Assembly: GCA_040877935.1 (NCBI GenBank)
Contig: JBBDNB010000014.1
Span: 1 to 33,368, forward strand
DNA: 33,368 nt
Reading direction: 5' to 3'
From: Chitinophagales bacterium
Lineage (GTDB): Bacteria; Bacteroidota; Bacteroidia; Chitinophagales; CAIOSU01
The position numbers were made by a program, and so were the translations under genes. The first letter of the stretch is position 1. Every line of letters starts with the position of its first letter. A model generated the notes under the pieces. It had not been told where the DNA came from. It made no database searches and worked only from the letters and a program-made list of their open reading frames with translations. Positions 2,575-24,585 of the stretch are shown one piece after another.

Positions 2575-3813
2575 ATGCGTGTTATAATATTTTTATTTTG
2601 CTTGTTTTTTGCTTTCCCCTCTTGCAAAAAGGAAAATCCGGAAGTGCAGCGTGACAATGAAAAAGAAATTGATCAAATAAAATACCCGCCTGCTGAAGCC
2701 ATGAAAATGCTCTTGAATGGCAGCAATGAATTTGGTATGCGCTTGTTCAAGGAAATCCACAAGCAGGAAGACAAAGCTGAGAATGTATTCGTTTCACCAG
2801 TGAGCGTGAGTATGGCGCTGGGCATGACATTGAATGGAGCAAGCGGAGCTACCGCCAATGATATGCGGACTACTTTGGATTTTTCAAATATTTCACAACA
2901 GAATATCAATTTGACTTACCGTGCTTTGTTGAATGATTTGCCTGCAATTGACCCACAGGTGACCGTGCAAATAGCAAATTCCATTTGGTCAAATGAGCAG
3001 TTTGATATTCTGCAGACTTTTATTGATACCAATCGCTACTATTTTAATGCAGAAGTAGCTGCCCTGGATTTTTCCGACCCCGCAAGCAAAGATGAGATCA
3101 ACCAGTGGGTAAGCGATGCCACCAATGGCAAGACCAAGGAATTATTGGATGAAGTGCGCAATGATCATCTGATGTTTCTGGTGAATGCCGTGTATTTTCT
3201 GGCCGACTGGAAATACAAATTCGACCCGAACAATACATCGCCCGGCAACTTTCAATTGCTCAATGGCAGCAATGTGCAGGTTGATATGATGAACAGCCCG
3301 GATATACCTTTTGAATATTATTCCAATGGCTCAATGGAGCTGATTAATTTGCCCTATGGCAATGGTCAGTACAATTTCACGGCAATACTGCCACCATCTA
3401 CAGCCGATCTGGATAATTTCATTGCTTCGCTCAATTCTGGCGATATGTTGCAATGGATCAGTCAGGCAGATACCAATCACGGGATGCATTTGAAAATGCC
3501 AAAATTTGAACTTGAATATGAGATCAAGTTGAAAAATGTGCTTAGCGCCATGGGGATGGAAATTGCTTTTTCTGACAATGCTGATTTTTCGAAAATGGCT
3601 GAGAACCTGCGCCTGTCAATAGACCAGGTTGCGCACAAAACATATATCAAACTCGATGAAGAAGGTACTGAAGCTGCTGCAGCTACTTCGGTGGGTGTCG
3701 TTGTCACCTCACTGCCGCCTACTTTCAGCCTTGATCGGCCTTTTGTTTATCTCATCCATGAAAAGGAAACCAATGCTCTACTCTTTATCGGTAAAATGAT
3801 GAATCCCGGATAG
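2575..3813 (+). CDS. Serpin (serine protease inhibitor), predicted lipoprotein
   Basis: 412 residues. A short signal ends in a lipobox-like FPSC with Cys17 followed by Lys-Lys, so the protein is probably lipid-anchored. The rest is a full serpin fold: NVFVSPVSVSMAL (70-82) near the start, LVNAVYFLADWKYKFD (202-217), LPYGNGQYNFTAILP (259-273) and the C-terminal DRPFVYLIHEKETNALLFIGK (split 387-407). The reactive-centre hinge is intact: EEGTEAAAATS (362-372), with small residues that allow strand insertion, so an inhibitory serpin is expected. Aligning the loop with alpha-1-antitrypsin (GTEAA...P1-Ser-hydrophobic-Pro-Pro) puts P1 at Thr378 and P1' at Ser379. Bacterial serpins are thought to protect cells from host, predator or self proteases. 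Start chosen at 2575 because the ATG at 2563 is in a frame that stops at once. Confidence 0.93.
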   Translation: MRVIIFLFCLFFAFPSCKKENPEVQRDNEKEIDQIKYPPAEAMKMLLNGSNEFGMRLFKEIHKQEDKAENVFVSPVSVSMALGMTLNGASGATANDMRTTLDFSNISQQNINLTYRALLNDLPAIDPQVTVQIANSIWSNEQFDILQTFIDTNRYYFNAEVAALDFSDPASKDEINQWVSDATNGKTKELLDEVRNDHLMFLVNAVYFLADWKYKFDPNNTSPGNFQLLNGSNVQVDMMNSPDIPFEYYSNGSMELINLPYGNGQYNFTAILPPSTADLDNFIASLNSGDMLQWISQADTNHGMHLKMPKFELEYEIKLKNVLSAMGMEIAFSDNADFSKMAENLRLSIDQVAHKTYIKLDEEGTEAAAATSVGVVVTSLPPTFSLDRPFVYLIHEKETNALLFIGKMMNPG

Positions 3814-3864
3814 TATAAGTTCTTTGTAGTTTATGAGTCAGAAAGCTTGGATCACAACAACAAT

Positions 3865-3905
3865 AAAAAACCGGTAAGCAGAATCTATCCACTTACCGGT
3901 TTTTT
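3865..3905. terminator. Bidirectional rho-independent terminator (serpin / queA)
   Basis: A run of six A, the arm CCGGTAAG, a 13-base loop, the arm CTTACCGG and six T. It is symmetric, so it works on both strands, and it sits between the convergent serpin and queA stop codons (52 bp after the serpin stop, 19 bp past the queA stop on the other strand). This is the clearest intrinsic terminator in the window. Confidence 0.92.
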
Positions 3906-3923
3906 AACCACCACAGTTTTGTT

Positions 3924-4973
3924 TTAGATGATCAGCATGGCATCGCCATAGCTGTAAAATTTGTATTTCTCTTTAATTGCAATTTTGTACGCTTCCAAAA
4001 TAAGATCATAACCACCAAAAGCAGCTACCATGATCATCAGGCTCGAGCGTGGAATATGAAAATTTGTGATCATTGAATTGGCTATATGGAAATCATAGGG
4101 CGGATGAATAAACAGGTTTGTCCAGCCTTCTGTGGTTTTTAACAGGTTTTCAGCTGAAACCGCAGATTCCATAGAGCGCATACTTGTAGTTCCTACGGCA
4201 CAAACTCTTTTGTTTTTCAGCTTAGCTTTATTTACTGCATTTGCAGATTCTTCAGTAATTCTGAAAAACTCAGCATCCATTTTGTGCTTGGAAAGGTCTT
4301 CCACATCAATATTCCTGAAAGTGCCCAGGCCAATATGCAGTGTGAGTTCTGTTAAATCAATACCTTTGATTTCCATGCGCTTCATCAGTTCAGGACTGAA
4401 ATGCAAGCCGGCAGTAGGGGCAGCCACAGCACCTTCTTCTTTGGCATAGATGGTTTGATAGCGCTCAATGTCCAGTTCTTCAGGCTCGCGCTTGATATAT
4501 TTTGGCAAAGGCGTAGAACCCAGGCTGAATAAAATTCTTTTGAATTCACTCAATTCACCATCGTAAAGAAAACGAATGGTACGGCCTCTTGAAGTGGTAT
4601 TGTCCACTACTTCAGCAACTAAAATATCGTTTTCACCGAAATACAATTTATTGCCCACACGGATTTTTCTGGCAGGATCTACCAGTACATCCCACAATTT
4701 CAATTCGGCATTCAGTTCGCGAAGCAGAAATACTTCGATTTTAGCTCCGGTTTTTTCTTTTCTTCCGTAAAGTCGGGCGGGAAATACTTTGGTATTGTTA
4801 AAAACAAGTACATCATCTTCATCAAAATAATTGATGACATCTTTAAATACTTTGTGCTCTATCGTCCCTTTGGCACGGTCTACAACCATTAAGCGGCTTT
4901 CGTCCCGGTTATCAGAGGGGTATTCTGCTAATAATTCTTTAGGTAATTCATAATCAAACTGTGACAGCTTCAT
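3924..4973 (-). CDS. queA: S-adenosylmethionine:tRNA ribosyltransferase-isomerase (queuosine synthesis)
   Basis: 349 residues, normal length for QueA. It transfers and isomerises the ribosyl group of S-adenosylmethionine onto 7-aminomethyl-7-deazaguanine at the tRNA wobble position, giving epoxyqueuosine. Family landmarks: N-terminal [14 protein letters not shown] (6-19), [16 protein letters not shown] (53-68), the highly conserved [10 protein letters not shown] (about 184-193), [11 protein letters not shown], and the C-terminal [23 protein letters not shown] in two pieces. The gene is transcribed alone on the minus strand. It is convergent with the serpin, sharing a terminator, and divergent from the MacB-like permease, with promoters packed into about 80 bp. 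The other queuosine genes are not in this window. The start ATG at 4973 is supported by a promoter 26 bp upstream. Confidence 0.96.
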
Positions 4974-6461: not shown

Positions 6462-7430
6462 ATGTACCGCTATATTTTATTGGGAAGTCTATTCATTATA
6501 GCTTCCTTTTTTGCCTGTAAAAAGGAGAAATACGATAACATTGGCCTTCATAGCAAAAGCGATTTTGGTGACAATCCCGGTAATTTGGAAATGTACTACT
6601 ACGAACCAGAAAACCATCTTACAGGAATGCCGCTATTGGTGGTTTTGCATGGTTGTTCACAGAATGCAGCGGATATTGCTGAACTAACAGAATGGAATAA
6701 ACTGGCTGATAGTCATGGTTTTTATGTGCTTTATCCTGAGCAGAAAACCATCAATAATACGACCAGCTGTTTCAACTGGTTTTTGGAAAAAGATCAGGAA
6801 AGAGGTAAAGGTGAAGCCAAATCCATTCGCAATATGATTGTGCAATTGCAAAAGGATAAAAACCTGCATTCCAATCGAACCTTCGTAACGGGAGTTTCAG
6901 CAGGCGGAGCGATGAGCAGTGTAATGATAAGCTGTTATCCTGAAATGTTTGATGGAGGAGCTGTACTTTCTGGAGGGCCTTATAAAGCCGCGGAAAAAAT
7001 TGCTGAATCAGCAGCTGCTTTGGCGGGCAATGTTAATAAAACAGCCCAGGAATGGGGAGATTTGGTGCGTAGTCAAAACATAGCCTATACGGGTACTTAT
7101 CCTAAATTGCTCATTTTTCACGGACAGGATGATAATGTAGTGGACATTAAAAATGCAAGGGGATTAGTAGAGCAATGGACCAATGTCCTGGGAATCAGTG
7201 ATCTTCCTGGTGAAGATGTTTACGTAAGGCCTGATGTACGTCAGTATATTTATGAAAATACGGAAGGCGATTCACTGCTGATATATTATGAAGTAGAAGA
7301 CATGGGACATGCCATTGCAACCGACCCGGGCAGCGGAGCACAGCAGGGTGGGGGGACAGGAACTTTTAGCAATGACAAGGATTTTTATTCCTCTTATTGG
7401 ATTGCCCATTTTTTTGGGTTGATAAATTAA
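6462..7430 (+). CDS. PHB-depolymerase-family esterase lipoprotein (alpha/beta hydrolase)
   Basis: 322 residues. The signal peptide ends with FFAC (Cys19) followed by Lys-Lys, so it is a predicted lipoprotein. The alpha/beta hydrolase core is of the PHB depolymerase/feruloyl-esterase type: VVLHGCSQNAADIAE (60-74, oxyanion region), the nucleophile elbow GVSAGG with Ser146, the acid region FHGQDDNVVD with Asp224 the likely member of the triad, and MGHAIATDPG with His283. Proteins of this family cleave polyester or feruloyl/acetyl-xylan esters outside the cytoplasm. No polysaccharide-utilisation genes adjoin it, so the substrate is open. The protein ends shortly after the catalytic His, without a T9SS tail, consistent with membrane anchoring instead of secretion. 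Confidence 0.88.
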   Translation: MYRYILLGSLFIIASFFACKKEKYDNIGLHSKSDFGDNPGNLEMYYYEPENHLTGMPLLVVLHGCSQNAADIAELTEWNKLADSHGFYVLYPEQKTINNTTSCFNWFLEKDQERGKGEAKSIRNMIVQLQKDKNLHSNRTFVTGVSAGGAMSSVMISCYPEMFDGGAVLSGGPYKAAEKIAESAAALAGNVNKTAQEWGDLVRSQNIAYTGTYPKLLIFHGQDDNVVDIKNARGLVEQWTNVLGISDLPGEDVYVRPDVRQYIYENTEGDSLLIYYEVEDMGHAIATDPGSGAQQGGGTGTFSNDKDFYSSYWIAHFFGLIN

Positions 7431-7591
7431 ACCCGAAGTATGCATTTTGACTACTCAATGCCGCAATTAAAAACCATCACTCTTCATTTGGTTTTCTATA
7501 AAATCAAGAAAAAACCAAACATTTTCCCCGCTCATTTGTCTATTCTTAGATTTCCAATTAATTTCCCACTTCACTGAAAGCCTGATTTTTT

Positions 7592-8845
7592 ATGAAATCC
7601 CTATTCACCCTAAGCTCTTTTTTGATATTTGCAAACCTGATTTTTGCCCAAAACCAATGGGTTCAGAAAGACTCCCTCCAATGGGTTCAGAAAGACTCCC
7701 TTCCTGGAAATTTTGGAAGACACCACCCCGTAACCTGGGCTTTTGAAGATACGGCCTATGTATTGACAGGGGCTACAAATGCAAATCCAGGAGGAACCAA
7801 AGATTTTTTTATGTACACAGCATCTGATGATAGCTGGGAGGTTTTATCTGATTTCCCCGGTCCTGCAAGAAGTTATGCTTACGGACATGCACATCAGGGC
7901 AAAGGATATATTGGTTTTGGGTCAAATAATTTTAGCATTTTTAATGATCTGTGGGAATACGACCCTCAATCAGGCATCTGGACAGAATTGAGCTCTTGTC
8001 CCTGTGCCGCCCGAAATCATCCTGCATTTATTGCACATAAAGGAAAGATATATGTAGGGTTGGGTAACAATTCAGGAGGAAATCTTAAAGATTGGTGGGT
8101 ATATGACATCACAACAGACAGCTGGGGGCAACTGCCATCTTTACCCGGTCCTGCAAGGCACCACCCTTATCACTTTGCGGTAGGAGACTCCGTTTATGCC
8201 GGATTTGGACATGGCAACGGCATATTTAAAGATTGGTACAGGTATTTCCCCGGAGACAGTTCCTGGAGAGAAACAACAGTTACAGATACTTTTCCAGGTC
8301 AAGGTCGTGTAGCTGGTACTGAGTTCGGGCATTTAGACAAGGGCTATGTTTTGAGTGGTGATGGCGACATGCACTCAAGAATGGACAAAGGTGAGTTTTG
8401 GGAATTTGATCCGGAAACTGACGAATGGACAGAACTTACACCACACCGGGGATCAGGGCGCTGGGCTCCGGGTTCTTTTGTGCTGGGCAATACGCTTTAT
8501 TTCCTAGCCGGTCAAGACAAACAGGGAAATTTGAGAAAAGACATGTGGGCCTATGAATTGCCCGAGCCACCTGAAGATTCTATTCCAACTGGAATAAGTG
8601 AGCTTAATCATGTTGCTTTTAAGGTCTATCCAAACCCTGCACAAAACCGCATACGCTTATCCTCTGAACTTCCTGTAAATGAGAATTTTAATATTCATAT
8701 TTACAATGCACAAGGGCAGATGTTGAGCAACTCTACTCCAAAAGACAATAGTGTAAACATTTCACAGCTTTCTTCCGGGGTTTATTTCATTATTGCAGAA
8801 AATGAAAGAGGAGAAAGAAGATTTTCCAGGTTTGTGAAGCAATAG
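7592..8845 (+). CDS. Secreted kelch-repeat beta-propeller protein with T9SS sorting domain
   Basis: 417 residues: signal peptide (1-19, ending IFAQ), about five or six kelch motifs (about 35-325) and a T9SS type A sorting domain (about 345-417, VYPNPAQNRIRLSS ... LSSGVYFIIAENE ... FSRFVKQ). The kelch units show the usual pattern of a GxGx strand, a conserved Tyr-Asp pair and a Trp, for example DLWEYDPQSGIWTEL, DWWVYDITTDSWGQL and EFWEFDPETDEWTEL. Such propellers are exported through the outer membrane by T9SS and bind ligands or surfaces; no enzymatic residues are evident. Just after the signal peptide the eight residues QWVQKDSL occur twice in tandem, from a 24-bp DNA duplication. Start ATG 7592 gives a clean signal peptide. 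Confidence 0.9.
   Translation: MKSLFTLSSFLIFANLIFAQNQWVQKDSLQWVQKDSLPGNFGRHHPVTWAFEDTAYVLTGATNANPGGTKDFFMYTASDDSWEVLSDFPGPARSYAYGHAHQGKGYIGFGSNNFSIFNDLWEYDPQSGIWTELSSCPCAARNHPAFIAHKGKIYVGLGNNSGGNLKDWWVYDITTDSWGQLPSLPGPARHHPYHFAVGDSVYAGFGHGNGIFKDWYRYFPGDSSWRETTVTDTFPGQGRVAGTEFGHLDKGYVLSGDGDMHSRMDKGEFWEFDPETDEWTELTPHRGSGRWAPGSFVLGNTLYFLAGQDKQGNLRKDMWAYELPEPPEDSIPTGISELNHVAFKVYPNPAQNRIRLSSELPVNENFNIHIYNAQGQMLSNSTPKDNSVNISQLSSGVYFIIAENERGERRFSRFVKQ
7655..7702 (+). repeat. 24-bp tandem duplication inside the kelch gene
   Basis: Two adjacent 24-bp units (7655-7678 and 7679-7702), identical except for the last base, duplicate the residues QWVQKDSL at the mature N-terminus. The length is a multiple of three, so the frame is kept. 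The near identity suggests a recent slippage event. Confidence 0.9.
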
Positions 8846-9138
8846 CTTTTCAAAATACAACAAAGCATTACCCTCCCCTTTATTTTTCCAAAAATTCACT
8901 TTGTAATATTTCTGTCATAAAACAGAAACACGGACTTATTAGAGGCCCGCTCCTGTTTAAAAAGCAGATTATTTAAAGTCTGTCTATGAAAACGGTGATT
9001 GCTCCGAAATGCCTGATAAAAAAGCTTTTCGAAAAACAATAAGCAGAGGCAGAGTACTTGTATGTGCATTTTTCTAATTGAAATCTGTTCAACAAGATGG
9101 GGTTAAAATCACTAATTAGACAGATTCTAAATTGCTGC
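8846..9138. other. Intergenic stretch upstream of the heme operon
   Basis: About 290 bp without a supported gene. It holds a small perfect hairpin, TTTCTGT (8909-8915) / ACAGAAA (8922-8928) with a six-base loop, not followed by a T run. The remainder shows no recognisable riboswitch, tRNA or conserved frame. It may be partly the untranslated end of the kelch gene. Confidence 0.5.
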
Positions 9139-9169
9139 TTTTAAATGATAAGTAGCTGAAATAAATTTG
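9139..9169 (+). promoter_or_regulatory. Candidate promoter of the hem operon
   Basis: TTTT (9139-9142), 19 bp, then TAAATTTG (9162-9169), an exact TAnnTTTG -7 box with one mismatch in the -33 box. A start near 9175 would give a leader of about 28 bases before the hemA ATG at 9203. It is the only good match in the gap and would drive the hemACDEF cluster. Confidence 0.6.
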
Positions 9170-9202
9170 TAGTGCAAAAGATAGAAGACAGGACTATTTG
9201 AT

Positions 9203-10471
9203 ATGAGGATGAAAGCTGAAAATACATATTCCATTAAAGATTTCAAAGTACTGGGCATCAGCCACTGGAATACGCCCGTTGCCGTGCGTGAAAAATACAG
9301 TCTGAACGAAAGCCTTATACACGAAATTAAAGCTTTTGCAAAGGAACAGGGCATTGACAACTTATTGCTGCTTTCTACCTGCAACCGTTCAGAGGTGTTT
9401 GCTTTTACTGATAGTTTTGAAAAATTAGCTGCTGTTTTTCTGCATTTTGGGAAAGGCGAACTTTCAGAACTGCAAGCAAACTCTTATCAAAAATCAGGCG
9501 AAGCAGCCATCAGACATCTTTTTGAAGTGGCCAATGGCCTGGATTCCCAAATCCTCGGTGATTTTCAGATCGTATCACAGCTTAAAAATGCTTATCAATC
9601 CGGAATGGAAAATGGGCTGATCAATACTGAATTGAGCCGCCTGGTAGAGCAGGTGATACAGTGCAGCAAAAAAGTGAAAAGAAAAACACAATTGTCCAGT
9701 GGTGCAGCCTCTACTGCTTATGCTGCTGTTCAACATATTAAGAAGCACAACAGCAAGCTCGACAACAATGAAGTACTGCTGATAGGTACCGGTAAAATCG
9801 GTAGAGTGACCTGCAAAAATCTGGTCAAACATTTAGACCACAACCATATACGAATTATTAACCGCACACAATCCACTGCTGAAGAACTGGCCGAGACTTA
9901 TGGTCTGCAATGTGGCAATTTTGATGAAATTGAAAAGGAAATTGCCAAAGCAGGGATTATTGTTGTGGCAACCGGGGCGCCTGTTTCAGTGATATTGCCC
10001 GAACACCTTGACGGCATTACAGAGAAAAAAATCATTCTCGACCTTTCTGTTCCGCGCAATGTACATCCCGATATTGATCAGATCAATAATGTGGAAGTAA
10101 TTGACATGGACCACCTGGAAGATACCAAAAGTGAATCGTTGGCAGAACGTGAGGCCAGTATTCCTAAGGCCAAAGCCATTATCGATACTTTTATTGAAAC
10201 CTACAGCGAATGGTTGGATATGCGCAGCATTGCACCTACCATTCAGGCACTGAAACTCAAGTTGAAAAACATAAAGGAGCAGGAAATTCAAAAAGAGCTG
10301 GCCGGAAGTGGAGAGCTGGACAGTGTCCGCTTAGATGCAGTAAGCGACAGGATCATCAACAACATCACCAAACAGTGTGTGCTTCACCTGAAGAAGAATT
10401 ACAAAAACGAAACACTCTCTGTTCAGGCCATACAGCAAATTTTTGACCTGGAGACAGAGTTGCAATCATGA
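9203..10471 (+). CDS. hemA: Glutamyl-tRNA reductase
   Basis: 422 residues. It reduces glutamyl-tRNA(Glu) with NADPH to glutamate-1-semialdehyde, the committed step of C5-pathway tetrapyrrole synthesis. The catalytic Cys60 lies in LLSTCNRSEVFA. The substrate domain continues with GLDSQILGDFQIVSQ (about 111-125). The NADPH-binding domain has the Rossmann motif LLIGTGKIGR and DLSVPRNVHPD, and the C-terminal helical dimerisation domain has the usual amphipathic pattern. First gene of the cluster; its stop overlaps the hemC start (ATGA), indicating translational coupling. A second in-frame ATG at 9209 is possible. hemL, the next C5 enzyme, is not in this window. Confidence 0.97.
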   Translation: MRMKAENTYSIKDFKVLGISHWNTPVAVREKYSLNESLIHEIKAFAKEQGIDNLLLLSTCNRSEVFAFTDSFEKLAAVFLHFGKGELSELQANSYQKSGEAAIRHLFEVANGLDSQILGDFQIVSQLKNAYQSGMENGLINTELSRLVEQVIQCSKKVKRKTQLSSGAASTAYAAVQHIKKHNSKLDNNEVLLIGTGKIGRVTCKNLVKHLDHNHIRIINRTQSTAEELAETYGLQCGNFDEIEKEIAKAGIIVVATGAPVSVILPEHLDGITEKKIILDLSVPRNVHPDIDQINNVEVIDMDHLEDTKSESLAEREASIPKAKAIIDTFIETYSEWLDMRSIAPTIQALKLKLKNIKEQEIQKELAGSGELDSVRLDAVSDRIINNITKQCVLHLKKNYKNETLSVQAIQQIFDLETELQS

Positions 10472-11379
10472 AAAGCAAAAGCTTAAGGATTGGCACAAGA
10501 GACAGCTTGCTCGCCATTTGGCAGGCTGAAAAAGTACAGAATTTACTCAAAGCAAGTGGCATAAATTCCGAGCTTGTTTTTATCAAATCCTATGGTGACC
10601 AGGTACAGGATAAAGCCCTGCATCAACTGGGGGGCACAGGTGTTTTTACCAAAGCCCTGGACGATGCACTGCTCGACAATCAAATTGATATAGCAGTACA
10701 TTCCTGTAAGGATGTTCCCACACTTCCCGCCCCTGGCATTCATATTGGTGCCTATTTAGAAAGGGAAGACCATCGCGATGTTTTGGTTTGTAAATCAGCT
10801 GCTGCACTTGACGAATCAAAAACACATCAAATTGCCACCGGAAGCTTGAGGCGCAAAGCCCAATGGCTGCAACACTTCCCAAAAGATCAGGTGCACAATC
10901 TGCGAGGAAATGTTCAAACCCGGCTCCAAAAATTAAAAGACAACAACTGGTTCGGGGCCGTATTTGCCTGGGCTGGTTTGAAGCGATTGAATATACGCCC
11001 GGATCATTATATTATGCTCGACTGGATGCTTTCAGCACCCGCACAGGGCATAGTAGTTGCTGCCTGTCGGGAAAAAGATACCGAAACAAAGGAAAAAATC
11101 AGTGCTATTGACAACAAAGAAAGTCGCATACAGGCTACTGCAGAGCGCAAATTCCTCAACCTGATGGAAGGTGGATGTACTGCACCTATTGGAGCTTATG
11201 CCGAAATTTCAGGTGATTTGATGAAGCTTAAGGTGCAAGTCAACTCTATTGACGGACAGGAATTTGTGAAACTTGATGTAGAAGGAAGCAAAAATGAGCC
11301 TGAGTTGCTGGCCGAAAAAGCTTATAAAGCGGCTAAAGCCGAAGGTGCTGTAGAAATCGTGAGGCACATAAAACTCTAA
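10468..11379 (+). CDS. hemC: Porphobilinogen deaminase (hydroxymethylbilane synthase)
   Basis: 303 residues. It joins four porphobilinogens into hydroxymethylbilane. Landmarks: N-terminal RIGTRDSLLAIWQAEKV (7-23), GDQVQDKALHQLGGTGVFTK (split 43-62), the active-site HSCKDVPT with Asp82, GSLRRKAQ (125-132), NLRGNVQTRL (144-153) and the dipyrromethane cofactor attachment Cys237 in EGGCTAPIGA. The usual HSMKD or HSLKD motif is HSCKD here, a mild variation. Start overlaps the hemA stop by four bases; hemD follows after 4 bp. Confidence 0.97.
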   Translation: MKSKSLRIGTRDSLLAIWQAEKVQNLLKASGINSELVFIKSYGDQVQDKALHQLGGTGVFTKALDDALLDNQIDIAVHSCKDVPTLPAPGIHIGAYLEREDHRDVLVCKSAAALDESKTHQIATGSLRRKAQWLQHFPKDQVHNLRGNVQTRLQKLKDNNWFGAVFAWAGLKRLNIRPDHYIMLDWMLSAPAQGIVVAACREKDTETKEKISAIDNKESRIQATAERKFLNLMEGGCTAPIGAYAEISGDLMKLKVQVNSIDGQEFVKLDVEGSKNEPELLAEKAYKAAKAEGAVEIVRHIKL

Positions 11380-11383
11380 TTTC

Positions 11384-12085
11384 ATGGCTGCACAGAAACC
11401 CGTCATATTGTTTACCCGGGAAATTTCTAAAGCACAGGTCAGGCAACTCGAAAATGCAGTGTGGAAAGTGCTGATTGTACCTTTTATCAATTGTACATTT
11501 CTTTCTGACAAAACCGAATTGCAAAAATATTTTGAAGAAAATAAAAGTACTGAGGCTGTTATATTTACCAGTAAAAATGCTGTGAACGCCATTATTTCTG
11601 CTGGATTGATTAATTATTTGTCGCAGAAAAAAATATTTGCCGTAGGGGATAAAACAGCCGGATTATTAAAAGCAGAAGGGCTCAATGTACTTCAGCCCCC
11701 GGAGCAAAATTCAGTGAGTCTGGCACAGTTTATTATAAATGAATATGCTGAAATTCAACAACTTAGTTATTTTTGTGGAAATATCAGGAGAAAGGAATTG
11801 CCGGAAATATTAAAAAAGCATGGCAAATTGCTTGATGAGAAAGTTGTTTACAAGACAGAATTGCTGAAAAAGAAAATTGAGCAGCACTTTAATCATATTG
11901 TTTTCTATAGTCCAAGTGCAGTAAAAGCTTATTTTGCAAATAATAAAATTGAAAAGGATAAAAAAGCAATTTCTGTAGGCAATACGACTTCTTCAGAAAT
12001 CAAGAAATATTATTCAGGAGAAATTATTCAGGCAGCACAACCCAATACCGAATCAATAATAGAAATGCTACTGAAAATTCAATAA
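11384..12085 (+). CDS. hemD: Uroporphyrinogen-III synthase
   Basis: 233 residues. It cyclises hydroxymethylbilane with inversion of ring D. The family is poorly conserved in sequence, so position counts: it starts 4 bp after hemC and is followed by hemE. Visible family features are the N-terminal LFTREISKAQ, AVIFTSKNAVNAI (about 58-70, the TSxNAV motif), IFAVGDKTAGLLKAEG (about 84-99), the second-domain HIVFYSPSAVKAYF and ISVGNTTSSEIKKY near the end. Length is a little below the usual 240-260. Function is assigned from motif and operon context together. Confidence 0.9.
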   Translation: MAAQKPVILFTREISKAQVRQLENAVWKVLIVPFINCTFLSDKTELQKYFEENKSTEAVIFTSKNAVNAIISAGLINYLSQKKIFAVGDKTAGLLKAEGLNVLQPPEQNSVSLAQFIINEYAEIQQLSYFCGNIRRKELPEILKKHGKLLDEKVVYKTELLKKKIEQHFNHIVFYSPSAVKAYFANNKIEKDKKAISVGNTTSSEIKKYYSGEIIQAAQPNTESIIEMLLKIQ

Positions 12086-12139: not shown

Positions 12140-13162
12140 ATGTACACAAATGACTTAATGCTACGCGCTTTAAAAGGAGAAAAATTACAAAGGCCACCCG
12201 TCTGGATGATGCGCCAGGCAGGGCGCTACCTTCCTGATTACATGAAACTTAAAGAGAAACACTCTTTTTTTGAGCGAATTGAAAATCCGGAATTGGCTAC
12301 TGAAATCACCGTAATGCCGGTTGATCAAATTGGAGTAGATGCTGCAATTTTGTTTTCTGATATTTTGGTAGTGCCACAAGCACTTGGAATGGAAGTTCAG
12401 ATGATAAGTGGAAAAGGGCCTGTTCTGCCCAATCCTGTGAGCAGTATTTCACAGGCGCAGACCTTGCCAAAACCAGATGTGGAAGAGAAGCTACATTATG
12501 TGATGGACGCTATTAAACTCACTGTAAAAACACTGGATAAAAAAGTGCCGCTTATAGGCTTTGTTGGCTCGCCCTGGACTTTGTTTTGCTATATGGTAGA
12601 AGGGCACGGTTCAAAGGATTTCAGCAAGGCAAAAGCCTTTTGTTACCAGCACCCTTCAGCTGCTAAAAAACTATTGCAAAGCATTACAGGTGTGTGCATC
12701 GATTTTCTGAACGCCCAAATCAAAGCAGGAGTTGCTGTTGTGCAAATTTTTGATTCCTGGGGTGGTTTGCTCGGCCCTGAAGATTACAAAACTTATTCGC
12801 TGCCCTATATTGATCAAATAGTAAAAGGCGTAAAAGGTGCGCCAAGTATAGTTTTTGCCAAAGGCTGCTGGTTTGCACTAAAAGAACTGGCTGCTACAGG
12901 TACAGATGGCCTCGGCCTGGATTGGACAATCAACCCGAAATGGGCAAGAGCACAAGTGGGCGATAATATTACCTTGCAGGGCAATTTTGACCCGAGTAAA
13001 TTGCTCGGACAAAGCAAAGACATACAAAAGGAATGTATGTTGATGATTGATAATTTCGGCACTCAAAATTATATTGCCAATCTCGGGCATGGCATATTGC
13101 CGGATGTTCCTGTTCACAATGCAAAGGCATTTGTCGATAGTGTAAAAAATTACCAGGTCTGA
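12140..13162 (+). CDS. hemE: Uroporphyrinogen decarboxylase
   Basis: 340 residues. It removes four acetate carboxyls from uroporphyrinogen III to give coproporphyrinogen III. Conserved signatures: PPVWMMRQAGRYLPDY (19-34), with Arg25 and Arg29 of the substrate cleft, and ILFSDILVVPQALGM with Asp74, the catalytic/pyrrole-binding Asp. Further on are GFVGSPWTLFCYMVEG, IFDSWGGLLGPEDY, LQGNFDPSKLL and the C-terminal NLGHGILPDVPVHNAKAFVD, with its conserved His. The gene follows hemD by 54 bp with no clear promoter, and its stop overlaps the hemF start (TGATG), so it is co-translated with hemF. Confidence 0.97.
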   Translation: MYTNDLMLRALKGEKLQRPPVWMMRQAGRYLPDYMKLKEKHSFFERIENPELATEITVMPVDQIGVDAAILFSDILVVPQALGMEVQMISGKGPVLPNPVSSISQAQTLPKPDVEEKLHYVMDAIKLTVKTLDKKVPLIGFVGSPWTLFCYMVEGHGSKDFSKAKAFCYQHPSAAKKLLQSITGVCIDFLNAQIKAGVAVVQIFDSWGGLLGPEDYKTYSLPYIDQIVKGVKGAPSIVFAKGCWFALKELAATGTDGLGLDWTINPKWARAQVGDNITLQGNFDPSKLLGQSKDIQKECMLMIDNFGTQNYIANLGHGILPDVPVHNAKAFVDSVKNYQV

Positions 13163-14073
13163 TGAATGGTACCAGGGAAAAATTTACCAGGTTTATTCAT
13201 GCTTTGCAGGACGAAATATGTGCCGGACTGGAAGCCGAAGACACCAAAGCCAAATTTATGGAAGACAGCTGGGAGCGACCTGGTGGTGGGGGCGGTAAAA
13301 CCCGTGTGATCAGCGGGGGAGAGGTTTTTGAGAAAGGCGGTGTAAATACATCCATTGTGCATGGTGATTTGCCGGAGGCCATGCAAAAAGCATTTAAGGT
13401 AGAAGCAGGCAAATTTTTCGCCTGTGGTATTTCATTGGTCATTCACCCGGTAAATCCTTTTGTGCCTACAACACATGCCAATTACCGCTATTTTGAATTG
13501 TATGATGAAAAAGGGAATGAAATCGATTCCTGGTTTGGTGGTGGTGCGGATTTAACGCCTTATTATTTGGTCAATGAAGATGCCATACATTTTCACAAAA
13601 CCCTGAAAAAGGCCTGTGATACAATAGACGATAATTATTACCCGCAGTTCAAAAAAGATTGCGATAAATATTTCTGGAATGCGCATAGAAATGAGGCCCG
13701 TGGCGTGGGCGGCATTTTTTACGATTACCTGAGAGCAGATGAAAAATTGGACAAGGCTCATTATTTTAATTTTTCAAAAGCGGCAGGAAATGCCTTTTTG
13801 CCCGCCTATTTGCCTTTGGTGCAAAAGCATAAGGATTTTGCTTATACCGATGCAAATAAGGAGTGGCAGGAAATCCGCAGGGGACGCTATGTAGAGTTTA
13901 ATTTAATTCACGATCGCGGTACATTGTTTGGCCTGAAAACCAATGGGCGGATTGAGTCAATTTTGATGAGCCTGCCGCCCGTGGTGCGCTGGGAATACCA
14001 GCATAAGCCAGCCCAGGGCAGTCCCGAGTTTTTACTGGAAGAAAGATTGAAAAATCCCGTAGATTGGGTATAA
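13162..14073 (+). CDS. hemF: Coproporphyrinogen III oxidase, oxygen-dependent
   Basis: 303 residues, normal for aerobic HemF. It oxidatively decarboxylates two propionates of coproporphyrinogen III to vinyls, using O2 and no radical-SAM cluster. Features: SWERPGGGGGKTRVI (36-50), conserved histidines His95 (IHPVNP), His105 (THANYRYFE), His145 and His175 (AHRNEARGVGGIF), WFGGGADLTPYY (124-135) and YVEFNLIHDRGTLFGL near the C-terminus. Its presence implies heme synthesis under oxic conditions; the anaerobic HemN type is not seen here. It is the last gene of the contiguous operon, overlapping hemE by one base. No intrinsic terminator was found directly downstream. Confidence 0.97.
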   Translation: MNGTREKFTRFIHALQDEICAGLEAEDTKAKFMEDSWERPGGGGGKTRVISGGEVFEKGGVNTSIVHGDLPEAMQKAFKVEAGKFFACGISLVIHPVNPFVPTTHANYRYFELYDEKGNEIDSWFGGGADLTPYYLVNEDAIHFHKTLKKACDTIDDNYYPQFKKDCDKYFWNAHRNEARGVGGIFYDYLRADEKLDKAHYFNFSKAAGNAFLPAYLPLVQKHKDFAYTDANKEWQEIRRGRYVEFNLIHDRGTLFGLKTNGRIESILMSLPPVVRWEYQHKPAQGSPEFLLEERLKNPVDWV

Positions 14074-15201: not shown

Positions 15202-18200
15202 TTAAAATTTCTCCAACTTGAATGACCTTGCATCATCTCCATTGGTTATTCTCATCAAATAAACTCCTTGTGGAAATTGAGATAAATCGAATTGAATTAT
15301 CTGAGAGCCGACATTGCCTTCCAATGCATCCTCAATGATTGTTTTTCCTGTTATGTCGCTGATTGTCATATGCAATTTCTCAAACCTTTCAAGTGTTAAA
15401 TCTATCATAACCAAATCATAAACCGGATTTGGATAGACCTTTATTGAGCTAATGTTTGTGCCAGATGATTTTACACTACTGATTACTTGTGTTGACTCTA
15501 TAATCAGGGCAAGATCCTCAACAGTCTTGTTTTCTTCGCTGACAGTAACGATGACAGGATCAGTGGGTTTTCCTAATACCTCAGCATAAACTTTGTATGT
15601 CCCGTAAGCTACATTTGAAAAAGTGAATTTTCCATCTGCATCAGAATAAGTATATTGTACTGGGTTATCAAACATATCTAAAAGCAATACAGGCACATCT
15701 TCAACTGGATCGCCCGGTCCCTGCATCTTGTTTGCGCCTTGACTTACAAAACCGCCTACGAAACCCGGACCGCCCGGATTATTTGCACCAATCAGCCAGG
15801 TATCAATTTGCTGAAGGTTTTGGGTCAATAAAACCGGGATGGCATAACTCCAGAATAATGAGTTGCCATAATAGGTAGGGACATAATTGTTGTAATCGGT
15901 TGCCCCCTGATCTAAAGCGGCTTTCACCAAATATTTACCCACGGGCACATTGCAAAACTCGTAGCTTCCGTTAGAACCGGTATTAGTTGTTTGAACTTGA
16001 GTAAGCGTTCCAAGTGCTGTGTCATTATAAATAAGATATACCGATGCTGGATAAGCAGGATTGTTTGCTCCTCCTTTGGATATTTCTCCAGACAAGCAAT
16101 AATTTAACTGAGTACCTGTGCTTATCAGAATTGAATGACAAATATTATCAGTGCATCCGCTGGTGTCAATGATAGTGAGACATGCCTGATAAGTACCATT
16201 CTGACCGTAGGTATGCGATGGATTTTGCTGGGTGGATGTAGTGTTATCTCCAAAAGTCCAGAAAGAGGAGGTGTAATTGGTGGAAGTATTATTAAATGTT
16301 ACATTATTGTTGTTGACAGTGTAGGTAAAAGAAGCACTACAGGAATCGATCCCTGCTACTGTAATAGCAGTACATAGTGTGTCCGAACATCCTAAGGAAT
16401 CCGCAACGCTAAGGCAAACATTATAAGTTCCGGGCTGTGCAAAGGAATATGTGGGGTTTCGTACTGTATCACTTGTGCCGTCTCCAAAATCCCAAAAGTA
16501 AGTAAGGGGATTGTTGCCCAATGATGTGTTTGTAAAAGTGTAAACATTCACAGAGTCAGTATATGTATAGGATGCATTGCAAAAATGGTTACTTGCTACA
16601 GTAATAGCAGTACATAGCGTATCAATACATCCCTGGGAATCCGAAGCAATAAGACACACATTATAAATACCAGATTGAGCAAACGAATGAATTGGGTTTT
16701 GTACTGTATCACTTGTACCATCTCCAAAATCCCAAAGGTAAGTAAGGGGGTTGTTGCCAGATGAAGTGTTTGTAAAAGTGTAAACATTTAAAGAGTCGGT
16801 GTATGTATAAGTGGCATTGCAATTCTTGTCTCCCCAAAACTTTACGAGAAAGGCATCATTGGTACCCCCACCAAATGTATCCTGATGACCACCGTAAGCA
16901 ATATTTGAAGTGGATAAACTATAACCTGCCAAATAGATATTATCATCCAAATCAAGGGCAACCGTATTGCCCCTATCTTCAACACTACCACCATAATAGG
17001 TAGCCCATTGGCGCATCCCATTGCTGTTAAATTTTACGAGAAAGGCATCAAAGTTCCCTCCACCAAATGAATTCTGGTATCCAATTGAGGCGATACCTGA
17101 AGTAGAACGTGAGCTACCCATTAGGTAAATATTGCCATAAGTGTCGGTAGCAACTGAACTGGCAAAATCTAAATTGCTACCGCCATAATATGTAGCCCAT
17201 TGACGTACTCCACTGCTGTTGAATTTTACAAGAAAGCCATCATATGATCCTCCACCATGAGTATATTGATGCCCACCATAGGCAATACTATAATTAATGG
17301 GGGGGGCTGCGGGTCCCGCTATGTATACATTACCATTGGCATCAGTGGCAACCGAAGAGGCATACTCATTAGCATTTTCGCCATAATATGTAGCCCACAG
17401 GCGAACTCCGTTGCTGTTGAATTTTACAAGAAAGGCATCGCTATAAGCAGCAGGACTTCCTATTCCTGCAAATAGATTCTGGTGGCCATTATATGCGATA
17501 CTGTCGTAGGATTCTGTTTCACCCGCCATATAAATATTGCCATTGGCATCAGTTGCAACGGAATAGCCTATATCTTCATCCGGTCCGCCATAATAAGTTG
17601 CCCATTGACGTACTCCATTGCTGTTGAATTTCACAAGAAAGGCATCAGAGTTTCCTACAAAATTTCCCCCAATTGTATCTTGATGCCCACTGGAAGCAAT
17701 ATTTGAAGCGGAATTAGTATAACCCGCCAAATAAACATTGCCGTTCGCATCGGTGGCAACCGACTCTCCCCTATCAGACATAGTCCCCCCATAATAAGTT
17801 GCCCATTGACGCACTCCATTGCCGTTGAACTTCACAAGAAAGGCATCAGGTTTAGGGGGAGAGATGTAATCCCCTAATGTATCTTGATGCCCCCCGAATG
17901 CAATATTTGAAGTTGAATAAGTATAACCCGCCAAATAGACATTGCCATTCACATCGGTGGCAACAGAATTGCCATCTTCTACCTCACTTCCTCCATAATA
18001 AGTTGCCCATTGGCGTACTCCATTACTGTTGAATTTAACGAGATATGCATCTGAGCTTCCTGAATAAGTATTTTGATGTCCACCGGAAGCAATATTTGAA
18101 GTGGATAAAGCATAACCAGCCAAATAGACATTGTCATTCGCATCGGTAGTAACTAAAGATCCTATATCCTCATCGCTTCCCCCATAATATGTTCCCCATT

Positions 18201-19083
18201 TCAATATTGGGTCAATAATAAGTGATGTGTTTGGGGTAAGCTTGGCGTTTGGTTCGAAGCCAAATAAATTTTGATCCAACTGTGCATATTTTACTTTTAC
18301 TTCTTGTTCAATACCATCAATAAGTTGGTAACTGTAGGGAATGCTTTCTTGTAGTTTTCCATGAGCTGTAGTGAGGGCAAGAGCATCCATGCCCTTTTTG
18401 TTATCACAATTACTATTACCAAGCGTAATCCCATCAGCACCTTTATATCTTAGCTTTATATTTTTGTAGTCTCCTCCGGGGTGCACAATGAAATTGTATT
18501 TCACAAACTCCCCTTTTGTCAATTCATCTGTGGCAGCCACAGAGAATTCCAGGTCAATATTTGGGTAAATGTCCTTGTAAAGCACTTTGTCGTAATGGTG
18601 AACACGGGTAGCCCCATCTTCAAGCGTAATAGAGTTGTAGTAGTTGATATAGTCGGGAGCGGGGTTGAGGGCAACAAGCTGTGCCTTGGGGTTGCTACCT
18701 ACCAGTTCTATATCAATTCGCTGGGTATGGATATCGTATTTCTTTGGCTGTTTCTCTACCAAACCTTCAAGGTTTTCGAAACCTTGAAGGTTTCCTTCCA
18801 GCCCATCTTCCCAGCCCGTAGCTTCTGAAAAGCGTCTTTCTTTTTCCTCATACTTCACCACCTCATAGCTGAACCCCTGCTGGCGGAGGTGTACCTGCAC
18901 CCCATTTCCAGGGAAAAGATATTTTACATCAGGATTGGAATTGTTGCCCTGATCCATTATCTGTCCTTTGTTTTCAATAAATCCATACTGCGTTCCATTG
19001 GAAAACTCAGAAACCTGATTCTGTGCTACAGAATGGATAGAAAAAGCAAATGTCAAAAGCGTAATTATTTGTAATGTTTTCAT
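15202..19083 (-). CDS. Large secreted SBBP-repeat / PKD / T9SS protein
   Basis: 1293 residues. Layout: signal peptide (1-21, ending SVAQ); an N-terminal domain found in many Bacteroidota surface proteins (about 25-290, ENKGQ ... DVKYLFPGNGVQVHLRQQGF; I recall it as DUF7948); seven SBBP repeats (about 296-753), each with WATYYGG, SVATDANGNVYLAGYT and DAFLVKFNSNGVRQ; three PKD domains (about 753-990) with YLWDFGDGTSDTV-type cores; two carboxypeptidase-regulatory-like beta-sandwich domains (about 1000-1200, SGEISKGG and GFVSQG starts); and a T9SS type A sorting domain (last ~80, VYPNPVYDLVMID ... FPQGVYLMRI). It should be exported to the surface or medium as an adhesive or structural protein; no catalytic site is seen. 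I begin at ATG 19083, since the upstream TTG adds only three residues before the signal peptide. A perfect 33-bp palindrome lies in the coding DNA at 18761-18793. Confidence 0.92.
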   Translation of the reverse strand: MKTLQIITLLTFAFSIHSVAQNQVSEFSNGTQYGFIENKGQIMDQGNNSNPDVKYLFPGNGVQVHLRQQGFSYEVVKYEEKERRFSEATGWEDGLEGNLQGFENLEGLVEKQPKKYDIHTQRIDIELVGSNPKAQLVALNPAPDYINYYNSITLEDGATRVHHYDKVLYKDIYPNIDLEFSVAATDELTKGEFVKYNFIVHPGGDYKNIKLRYKGADGITLGNSNCDNKKGMDALALTTAHGKLQESIPYSYQLIDGIEQEVKVKYAQLDQNLFGFEPNAKLTPNTSLIIDPILKWGTYYGGSDEDIGSLVTTDANDNVYLAGYALSTSNIASGGHQNTYSGSSDAYLVKFNSNGVRQWATYYGGSEVEDGNSVATDVNGNVYLAGYTYSTSNIAFGGHQDTLGDYISPPKPDAFLVKFNGNGVRQWATYYGGTMSDRGESVATDANGNVYLAGYTNSASNIASSGHQDTIGGNFVGNSDAFLVKFNSNGVRQWATYYGGPDEDIGYSVATDANGNIYMAGETESYDSIAYNGHQNLFAGIGSPAAYSDAFLVKFNSNGVRLWATYYGENANEYASSVATDANGNVYIAGPAAPPINYSIAYGGHQYTHGGGSYDGFLVKFNSSGVRQWATYYGGSNLDFASSVATDTYGNIYLMGSSRSTSGIASIGYQNSFGGGNFDAFLVKFNSNGMRQWATYYGGSVEDRGNTVALDLDDNIYLAGYSLSTSNIAYGGHQDTFGGGTNDAFLVKFWGDKNCNATYTYTDSLNVYTFTNTSSGNNPLTYLWDFGDGTSDTVQNPIHSFAQSGIYNVCLIASDSQGCIDTLCTAITVASNHFCNASYTYTDSVNVYTFTNTSLGNNPLTYFWDFGDGTSDTVRNPTYSFAQPGTYNVCLSVADSLGCSDTLCTAITVAGIDSCSASFTYTVNNNNVTFNNTSTNYTSSFWTFGDNTTSTQQNPSHTYGQNGTYQACLTIIDTSGCTDNICHSILISTGTQLNYCLSGEISKGGANNPAYPASVYLIYNDTALGTLTQVQTTNTGSNGSYEFCNVPVGKYLVKAALDQGATDYNNYVPTYYGNSLFWSYAIPVLLTQNLQQIDTWLIGANNPGGPGFVGGFVSQGANKMQGPGDPVEDVPVLLLDMFDNPVQYTYSDADGKFTFSNVAYGTYKVYAEVLGKPTDPVIVTVSEENKTVEDLALIIESTQVISSVKSSGTNISSIKVYPNPVYDLVMIDLTLERFEKLHMTISDITGKTIIEDALEGNVGSQIIQFDLSQFPQGVYLMRITNGDDARSFKLEKF
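16097..16816 (-). repeat. Three tandem PKD-domain units, the first two nearly identical
   Basis: Units of about 240 bp: 16577-16816, 16337-16576 and a diverged third, about 16097-16336. The first two encode YTYTDSxNVYTFTNTSxGNN and WDFGDGTSDTV with few changes, pointing to a recent duplication. The third keeps the FTFGDNT-like core but differs in most positions. All end with a Cys pair (GC.DTLC or GC.DNIC), possibly a disulphide. Confidence 0.8.
16826..18198 (-). repeat. Seven SBBP repeats (about 64-69 codons each)
   Basis: Seven consecutive units, each starting WxTYYGG, running through DANGNVYLAG and GGHQ and ending DAFLVKFNSNGVRQ. The DNA of the units is also similar, especially the blocks encoding LVKFNSNGVRQWATYYGG. 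Seven units would suffice to close one seven-bladed propeller. The variable part of each unit is the loop after GGHQ, where lengths and sequence differ. Confidence 0.88.
18761..18793. repeat. Perfect 33-bp palindrome inside a coding sequence
   Basis: Arms AAACCTTCAAGGTTT and AAACCTTGAAGGTTT are exact complements, 15 bp each, around a three-base loop TCG. On the minus strand it encodes NLQGFENLEGL, in the charged linker of the N-terminal domain of the large T9SS protein. Its length is a multiple of three. It resembles in size and layout the imperfect 33-base palindrome at 23932-23964. Confidence 0.9.
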
Positions 19084-19221
19084 AATTGACAATTTTTTAA
19101 ATTACAGTTTAAGTTCTAATAGGTGGATGTCTAATATTTTTTTGCAATCACAAGATGAAATTCACCAATTCATTTTTCTTATTTAAATACACTTTTTACT
19201 GTTTATCAGAAAAACCACTCA

Positions 19222-23883: not shown

Positions 23884-24025
23884 AAACCTCTCTGCTAGTG
23901 CGAGCTTTCAGCCCGTTCCTTCAAACCCAACAGACCTGCTAAGTTTTGAAAACTTGCTATGTCTTCATTTTCTCAACTCCTTAATGGTTTAAAATATTGG
24001 TGGCTTGGTGGGAATAATTAGCCCT

Positions 24026-24267: not shown

Positions 24268-24585
24268 TCAAACGCAAGTAGGAAGAAGGTTTTCAAATTT
24301 TTGGGACACTGTCCCAAAAATTTGCGGATAAGTGCTGTAAAACTGACGGCATCGAGATAGTTCAGGAGCAGTAAGCCCTTTGATTGAGAGTTTTTTGGCT
24401 AAATCTTTTAAAAGTTTACTGCCATAGATCGATCTGTCTTTTCCATTTTGTTCAAATTCTACTATGTAATGACCAATCAGCCAATTGCGGATGGTCAAAG
24501 CCTGATTTACAGCACTAGCAGCATTGTACTGAAGCTGGCTATGAACAGTTTCAATTGTTGATATAAGTTCTTTGAAATTCTTCAT
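24268..24585 (-). pseudogene. Truncated DUF1016/YhcG-family gene (N-terminal domain only)
   Basis: 105 residues: FKELISTIETVHSQLQYNAA, ALTIRNWLIGHYIVEFEQNG (about 29-48), YGSKLLKDLAKKL, KGLTAPELSRCRQFYSTYPQI (split), TVSQKFENLLPTCV. This is the N-terminal (DUF1016_N) half of the YhcG family, whose full members are about 330-370 residues and carry a PDDEXK nuclease domain in the C-terminal half. That nuclease half is absent: the frame stops at 24268, and repeat copy B lies about 85 bp beyond. Such proteins are often linked to restriction or defence loci. It is most likely a decayed remnant, though a free-standing small protein cannot be excluded. An exact hairpin (24619-24640) lies just upstream of its start. 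Confidence 0.8.

Follow-up and report, generated by a model that had tools for sequence, protein, structure and literature searches.

Palindromic repeats that lie in frame within bacterial genes are known from several systems. Among the transposases associated with repetitive extragenic palindromes (REPs), those of TnpA_REP subclass 2.4, abundant in Bacteroidetes and Cyanobacteria, are flanked by REPs and also carry them in frame between the HuH and Tyr motifs, in a variable region modelled as a peripheral extension (Quentin et al. 2018, PMC6006769). The same paper describes a subclass 2.6 from Bacteroidetes, with atypical flanking structures and copies elsewhere in the genome, and genes for REP-associated tyrosine transposases (RAYTs) flanked by REPs have been described as a unit (PMC2817692). 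REPINs, which are extragenic and tied to RAYTs, consist of conserved 16-mers with a spacer between them (Bertels and Rainey 2011, PMC3116915). Rickettsia palindromic elements (RPEs), about 150 bp long (PMC10969869), occur in frame in many unrelated proteins (also PMC3733652), and intragenic GTAG/CGTC REPs have been found within open reading frames (ORFs) including those of tRNA synthetases and repair genes (PMC3733652). Here, we describe a 33-bp palindrome at positions 18761-18793 of a 33,368-nucleotide stretch of Chitinophagales DNA, hereafter the window, which lies in frame within a gene encoding a protein with a type IX secretion system (T9SS) sorting domain.

As in subclass 2.4, palindromes were found in frame between the HuH and Tyr motifs of 17 of 28 readable RAYT ORFs; unlike the canonical long REPs and double-foot REPs (GT[AG]G) of that subclass, the 33-mers are footless and follow a 15-3-15 layout. 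Two inverted palindromic units folding into one hairpin, a high copy number and an association with RAYTs are shared with REPINs, from which the 33-bp size of the whole unit and its 3-nt spacer differ. The likeness to RPEs, as these are described in print, lies in the presence of a palindromic repeat in frame in unrelated proteins, whereas the present element measures 33 bp, is found mainly in Bacteroidota and is linked to RAYTs. The ends that define the GTAG/CGTC REPs were not seen as a feature here. With subclass 2.6, it shares the Bacteroidetes and gene-adjacent structures; as a difference in description, the palindrome here precedes the alpha-C helix, and the two may be the same class. In-frame REPs of subclass 2.4, RPEs, REPs within ORFs and REPINs are already known; what is new is the 33-bp footless form, together with its frame-biased presence in host genes from Bacteroidota and from one Parabeggiatoa genome. 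The open-access papers searched, to which subscription journals, supplements and figures do not belong, yielded none with AACCTTGAAGGTT and, among the matches listed, none on such elements in Bacteroidota host genes, and two of the searched peptide strings returned no open-access paper save one unrelated editorial.

The window palindrome is one copy of a repeat family

The palindrome reads AAACCTTCAAGGTTT-TCG-AAACCTTGAAGGTTT, its 15-nt arms being perfectly complementary. Both the left arm (18761-18775, plus strand) and the right arm (18779-18793, plus strand) are themselves palindromic, with six of six outer pairs, and the 3-nt spacer TCG (18776-18778, plus strand) is the part that varies among exact-arm copies. 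The whole unit, to which no strand is assigned, forms a strong hairpin (z -6.7). It lies within a minus-strand ORF (15202-19092) whose product has SBBP-type repeats and, at its C-terminus, a sorting domain of T9SS type A (TIGR04183). With the ATG at 19083 taken as the start, the palindrome is read there as NLQGFENLEGL, residues 98-108, within an N-terminal linker of variable length. The palindrome begins on the third position of a codon, a register that we call phase 2. The perfect inverted repeat with its three-base loop and the peptide encoded within the N-terminal domain, both proposed by the sequence-only reading, are confirmed.

That reading had also suggested a genome search for further 33-base palindromes of the same class, and the assembly (63 contigs, 4.03 Mb) indeed yielded them. 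The exact arms occur in five copies, with two variants at three mismatches, and AACCTTSAAGGTT in 19 places; the corresponding reversed control patterns gave none. A covariance model built from 14 class palindromes identified at least 40 distinct sites with E no greater than 1. Of these, 35 have E<0.01 and the other five are weak (E 0.0177 or worse); the total is a lower bound because the model scored 150 of 5437 first-look candidates. Most of the 40 sites lie outside any long spanning frame. At three, at least 100 open codons were present on both sides, namely in the window gene and in a RAYT gene and a cas1 gene, both on contig C49; the weak site C8:108272, in an open frame of 131 codons before and 24 after, is not reckoned among the in-frame copies. 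Across 1.08 Mb of collected sequence, a sample enriched for palindromes because much of it was chosen for containing the repeat, 259 windows showed at least 13 of 15 pairs compared with 4 after one block shuffle. The palindrome is thus far beyond chance and is one copy of a repeat family.

A doublet of small hairpins found in many genomes

Left arms were self-paired at four to six of the six outer positions in 21 of 24 hand-picked types (shuffled mean 1.6). The unit is an inverted doublet of tiny near-palindromic hairpins; as a whole, it also forms a single long hairpin and, because its arms are themselves nearly palindromic, it resembles a very small REPIN.

When the spacer was allowed to range from 1 to 12 nt, a search of the genome collection for the exact arms returned at least 120 stretches, and the matches listed include Chryseobacterium and its relatives, Draconibacterium, Algoriphagus, Ekhidna, Ignavibacteria and others. 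Of the 120 listed, 51 come from a single genome of the gammaproteobacterial Parabeggiatoa. The spacer measured 3 nt in 158 of the 176 exact-arm matches read in the collected loci. Per genome, the exact arms are uncommon (2 of 395 genomes of the phylum); the 15-3-15 layout with other arms is common, AAACCTNNNNGGTTTNNNAAACCNNNNAGGTTT being present in 84 of 98 genomes of genus g21, at up to 31 sites each, with none for the reversed control. Viral contigs contained three exact copies, none within a long frame. The Parabeggiatoa genome, which contributes 72 of the 154 distinct exact copies considered below among the matches listed, shows a consensus of its own in the outer flanks and carries other 15-3-15 palindromes such as ACGGATGCTATCCCT.

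Exact-arm copies within genes share one reading frame

Deduplication of the exact-arm, spacer-3 copies in loci L026-L145 left 154 distinct copies; L139, with a spacer of 12 nt and another frame, is outside this set. At least 60 open codons flanked 16 of the 154 on both sides, compared with 1470 of 3080 positions drawn at random from these loci. Part of the difference is trivial, since about 40% of frame/strand choices are closed by the sequence of the 33-mer (550 of 924 open). All 16 deep copies are in phase 2. Stop-free choices numbered 256 in phase 2, 290 in phase 1 and 4 in phase 0, phase 1 thus being open at least as often.

The 16 copies belong to 12 genes, comprising three RAYTs, eight host genes and one doubtful frame (L053) that probably starts upstream of the true start and was therefore not counted as a host gene. 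Four host genes come from metagenome-assembled genomes of Bacteroidota and encode isoleucyl-tRNA synthetase (IleRS), an RlmI-like methyltransferase, HsdM and a type ISP enzyme; the four from the single Parabeggiatoa genome encode TilS, a protein kinase, a glycosyltransferase and a short reverse-transcriptase remnant (L111). At an expected phase-2 share of 0.465, the chance of finding all eight host genes in this phase is p 0.002, and p 0.001 for nine of nine with the window gene, which had prompted the search. The in-gene copies in unrelated genes share one preferred frame.

The Parabeggiatoa glycosyltransferase gene contains, at L117:844-1020, four tandem 48-bp units with one 33-bp palindrome each (PNLQGLLNLEGFNWQA, slightly altered in the later units).

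The window peptide is well supported as repeat-derived

The T9SS linker was compared in 29 homologues of 28-41% identity, in which it measures 18-54 residues with a median of 40. It has 52 residues in the window protein and 41 without the peptide; seven of the ten closest homologues have 39-43. No peptide resembling NLQGFENLEGL, by the motif used, was found in any of the 29. Linker length alone proves little, because two peptide-free homologues reach 52 and 54 residues. No close orthologue of the window gene was found in the family or order, and no exact empty site is available for it because the closest homologue is only 46% identical. Orthologues that keep these residues without the palindrome, which the sequence-only reading had named as evidence to the contrary, were not encountered among these 29 homologues, the best relative being that distant. 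Folding the N-terminus of the T9SS protein from its sequence alone gave a poor model (predicted local distance difference test, pLDDT, 37.7), which was not used.

For the other hosts, alignments with PDB structures place the peptides of IleRS and TilS opposite a gap and show about seven gap positions around the peptide of cas1. In HsdM, the peptide and its surroundings account for about 22 additional residues, a figure resting on a weak second alignment block. The Parabeggiatoa glycosyltransferase had no PDB match, and the PDB search gave no alignment spanning the insert of the type ISP enzyme. Near-identical non-coding copies, the same peptide in unrelated proteins and the 29 peptide-free homologues support the earlier suggestion of a repeat tolerated through a length divisible by three and an open frame, so that there is good support for regarding the window peptide as repeat-derived protein sequence. 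The RAYT association, the palindromic nature of the arms and the frame bias go beyond that suggestion.

Association with RAYT genes

The genome of the window encodes a RAYT on contig C49 (G000:C49:11787-12479). The gene has a palindrome in frame at C49:12101, and its product, 230 residues long, carries the HUH and Tyr motifs. This protein matches the NCBIfam family of REP-associated tyrosine transposases (NF047646, E 1.7e-14) and has no PDB match; for one of two RAYTs, PHROGs returned a single weak unknown family. The N-H-x-H and Y-x-H-x-N-P signatures, corresponding to the HUH and catalytic Tyr motifs, are invariant in six of six aligned RAYT proteins. As to the conserved W of the WQ motif of subclass 2.4, none of the six has a W in the stretch from the alpha-C helix to the Tyr motif, as seen in an alignment restricted to these proteins. 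The model of the L131 homologue (pLDDT 83.9) has its best PDB match (E 4.8e-8, TMt 0.71, TMq 0.56) in 4er8, a structure of the E. coli TnpA_REP together with a REP hairpin, the TnpA_REP fold being thus seen on this homologue rather than on the C49 protein itself. In this model, the palindrome peptide (residues 75-85) lies in a loop preceding a long helix, where the blocks that contain it have mean pLDDT values of 66 and 43.

A palindrome-free RAYT query had matches in 132 of 296 genomes of the phylum, and 30 loci were taken from the matches listed. Under one filter, which asked for 13 or more of 15 pairs and for arms self-paired at four or more of six positions, a class palindrome was present in the gene or within 500 bp at 25 of these 30 loci compared with 4 of 45 other loci, two of the four being at a known palindrome site. 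With the same self-pairing filter, 25 of the 28 readable RAYT ORFs had a palindrome in them or within 600 bp, located upstream in 7, downstream in 13 and on both sides in 5. The 17 mid-gene palindromes mentioned above lie between the HUH motif and the long helix, and 16 of them are in phase 2, a count that is not independent because RAYT genes share ancestry. In the window's genome, contig C23 also has a class palindrome at 76941, 67 bp from a RAYT match ending at 76874.

Covariation was measured on the mid-gene palindromes, taken as 16 rather than 17 because L258 and L252 have the same sequence, each chosen at no fewer than 13 of 15 pairs and with the 11 of 28 RAYT genes lacking such a palindrome excluded. 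In this alignment, 99.6% of cells are paired, both sides have changed at 12 of 15 pairs, and four of five measures beat all 500 shuffles. Replacement of whole copies would produce this signal as well.

One intergenic site of genus g21 holds a lone palindrome in G101, G498 and G419 and, between the same two neighbour genes, a palindrome-RAYT-palindrome unit in G504; in G437, a palindrome is followed by what is by eye RAYT-like sequence. Lone palindromes and the RAYT unit share the same site, and either may have come first. The unit of G504 may be decaying, because its RAYT gene (L213:612-1229) has one in-frame stop.

On C49 (L146, 6967-14800), the RAYT gene stands between a cas9-like gene (6967-11565) and cas1 (12525-13466), downstream of which a cas2-like ORF and a repeat array were recognized by eye. 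Within this region, palindromes are found in the RAYT gene and immediately behind it, in cas1, where the in-frame reading is NFSKVENFGKV, and beyond the cas2-like ORF.

A candidate RAYT-spread element and its alternatives

We consider it quite probable that the window palindrome is a very small REPIN-like copy, most likely spread by a RAYT, that was kept in frame in the T9SS linker and translated. The mobile-looking unit would be the inverted doublet of near-palindromic 15-mers around the 3-nt spacer. A RAYT/TnpA_REP such as that of C49 would act on its single-stranded hairpin and spread copies, presumably by cleavage and strand transfer as the biochemistry of TnpA_REP suggests by analogy (PMC8266576). 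One copy would have landed, in a discrete insertion event, in the length-variable linker of the T9SS gene, and would have been kept and translated because it contributes 33 bp, is free of stops in that frame and codes for a loop-compatible peptide (N-L-Q-G-F-x-N-L-E-G-L). In-gene copies would generally survive where the frame is kept and the protein tolerates the added loop.

Several observations weigh against this scenario. No movement of the palindrome was observed in the genome comparisons, and no clean empty site was found at the two g21 intergenic sites searched; at the second of these, the palindrome is present in all three compared genomes with diverging arms, which shows persistence, not mobility. 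The C49 RAYT scores 53.9 bits with NF047646, below the cut-off of 80, and has no Pfam Y1_Tnp match at 0.001. The RAYT copy of L270 breaks the frame rule, being in phase 0, as is the cas1 copy, which has other arms. The covariation test set was preselected as palindromic, and its fifth measure, the number of further pair types, was unremarkable (121 of 500 shuffles). The added length is not always that of the repeat: IleRS (L088) has 13 residues in the aligned columns where 30 homologues have 6-13, with no clear insertion, the RlmI-like methyltransferase shows no clear gap at the peptide in its PDB alignment, and a copy near the C-terminus of the L122 RAYT adds about 5 residues rather than 11. 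Insertion with later trimming, or linker replacement, must be allowed for. The L122 copy near the C-terminus (L122:7041-7073) is in frame, and the usual linker of the same RAYT has another palindrome-like peptide.

Further contrary points are those expected if the palindromes spread by means other than RAYTs, such as gene conversion, template switching at hairpins or another enzyme, with RAYT genes merely carrying or attracting them. The GT[AG]G foot, needed to varying degrees by TnpA_REP (PMC8266576), occurs at 0 of 412 palindrome ends (1.03 expected) and a CGTC foot at 1 of 412 (0.61 expected), counted on 206 palindromes passing the self-pairing filter, Parabeggiatoa excluded. No prominent target-site duplication was found in 88 copies outside Parabeggiatoa, of which 13 share two flanking bases, none three and one four, figures that carry no chance value. 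C28, C33 and similar contigs have copies without a RAYT among the matches listed. This explanation is nonetheless unlikely, given the excess of the class at RAYT loci over other loci, the palindrome-RAYT-palindrome unit found where relatives have a lone palindrome, and the match between in-gene and flanking arms in RAYT loci such as L248, L249 and L264, although not in L253 and L273.

A role of the 33-mers in RNA or DNA, as bidirectional terminators or mRNA-stability hairpins, with the in-gene copy retained for the same function, would be consistent with the avoidance of genes, with the strong hairpin and with covariation within the coding DNA of RAYT genes. However, a tolerated mobile element would be equally expected to avoid genes and whole-copy replacement could yield the covariation, while arms and copy number vary between relatives in the g21 survey and a terminator within the T9SS gene would presumably be harmful; we regard this role as very improbable. 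Ordinary protein sequence, palindromic by accident, would suit the variable linker and its two long peptide-free homologues, but it is practically negligible in view of the 33-mers that recur almost unchanged outside long frames, both in this genome and in other genera, and of a peptide found in none of the 29 homologues.

A further reading, which we hold only tentatively and think rather doubtful, is that the 33-mer was selected to be translatable and that the in-gene RAYT copy is a functional self-site, serving autoregulation or self-mobilisation and preserved in palindromic form across Bacteroidota. The 33-mer could then enter genes at low cost because its length is a multiple of three and it is often stop-free and loop-coding in one frame.

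Other palindromes of the window

The sequence-only reading had pointed to an imperfect palindrome of the same size in non-coding DNA at 23932-23964 (no strand assigned). Its 15-3-15 layout and apparently non-coding position (longest frame across the site, 40 codons; hairpin z -4.1) stood up to analysis; its membership of the class is only borderline, since it is degenerate, with 11 of 15 pairs, and its covariance-model score (22.8 bits, E 0.153) is the weakest best E-value among the 40 class sites.

A short minus-strand ORF of the window with a DUF1016_N domain (24268-24585) contains a different perfect palindrome, 15-1-15, at 24294-24324, and an L131 ORF that is DUF1016-like by eye (3706-4179) contains other palindromes at 4002 and 4056. 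Because both ORFs contain palindromes, DUF1016-type genes may host a second palindrome class.

Implications

Protein sequence derived from repeats is familiar above all from Rickettsia; these results add Bacteroidota and a Parabeggiatoa genome, and connect such sequence with an enzyme family. At 33 bp, the system is also compact and easy to search, and it allows insertions, the choice of frame and tolerance to be counted. For annotators, the results carry a warning that peptides resembling NLQGFxNLEGF in unrelated proteins are repeat fossils and do not indicate a shared domain.
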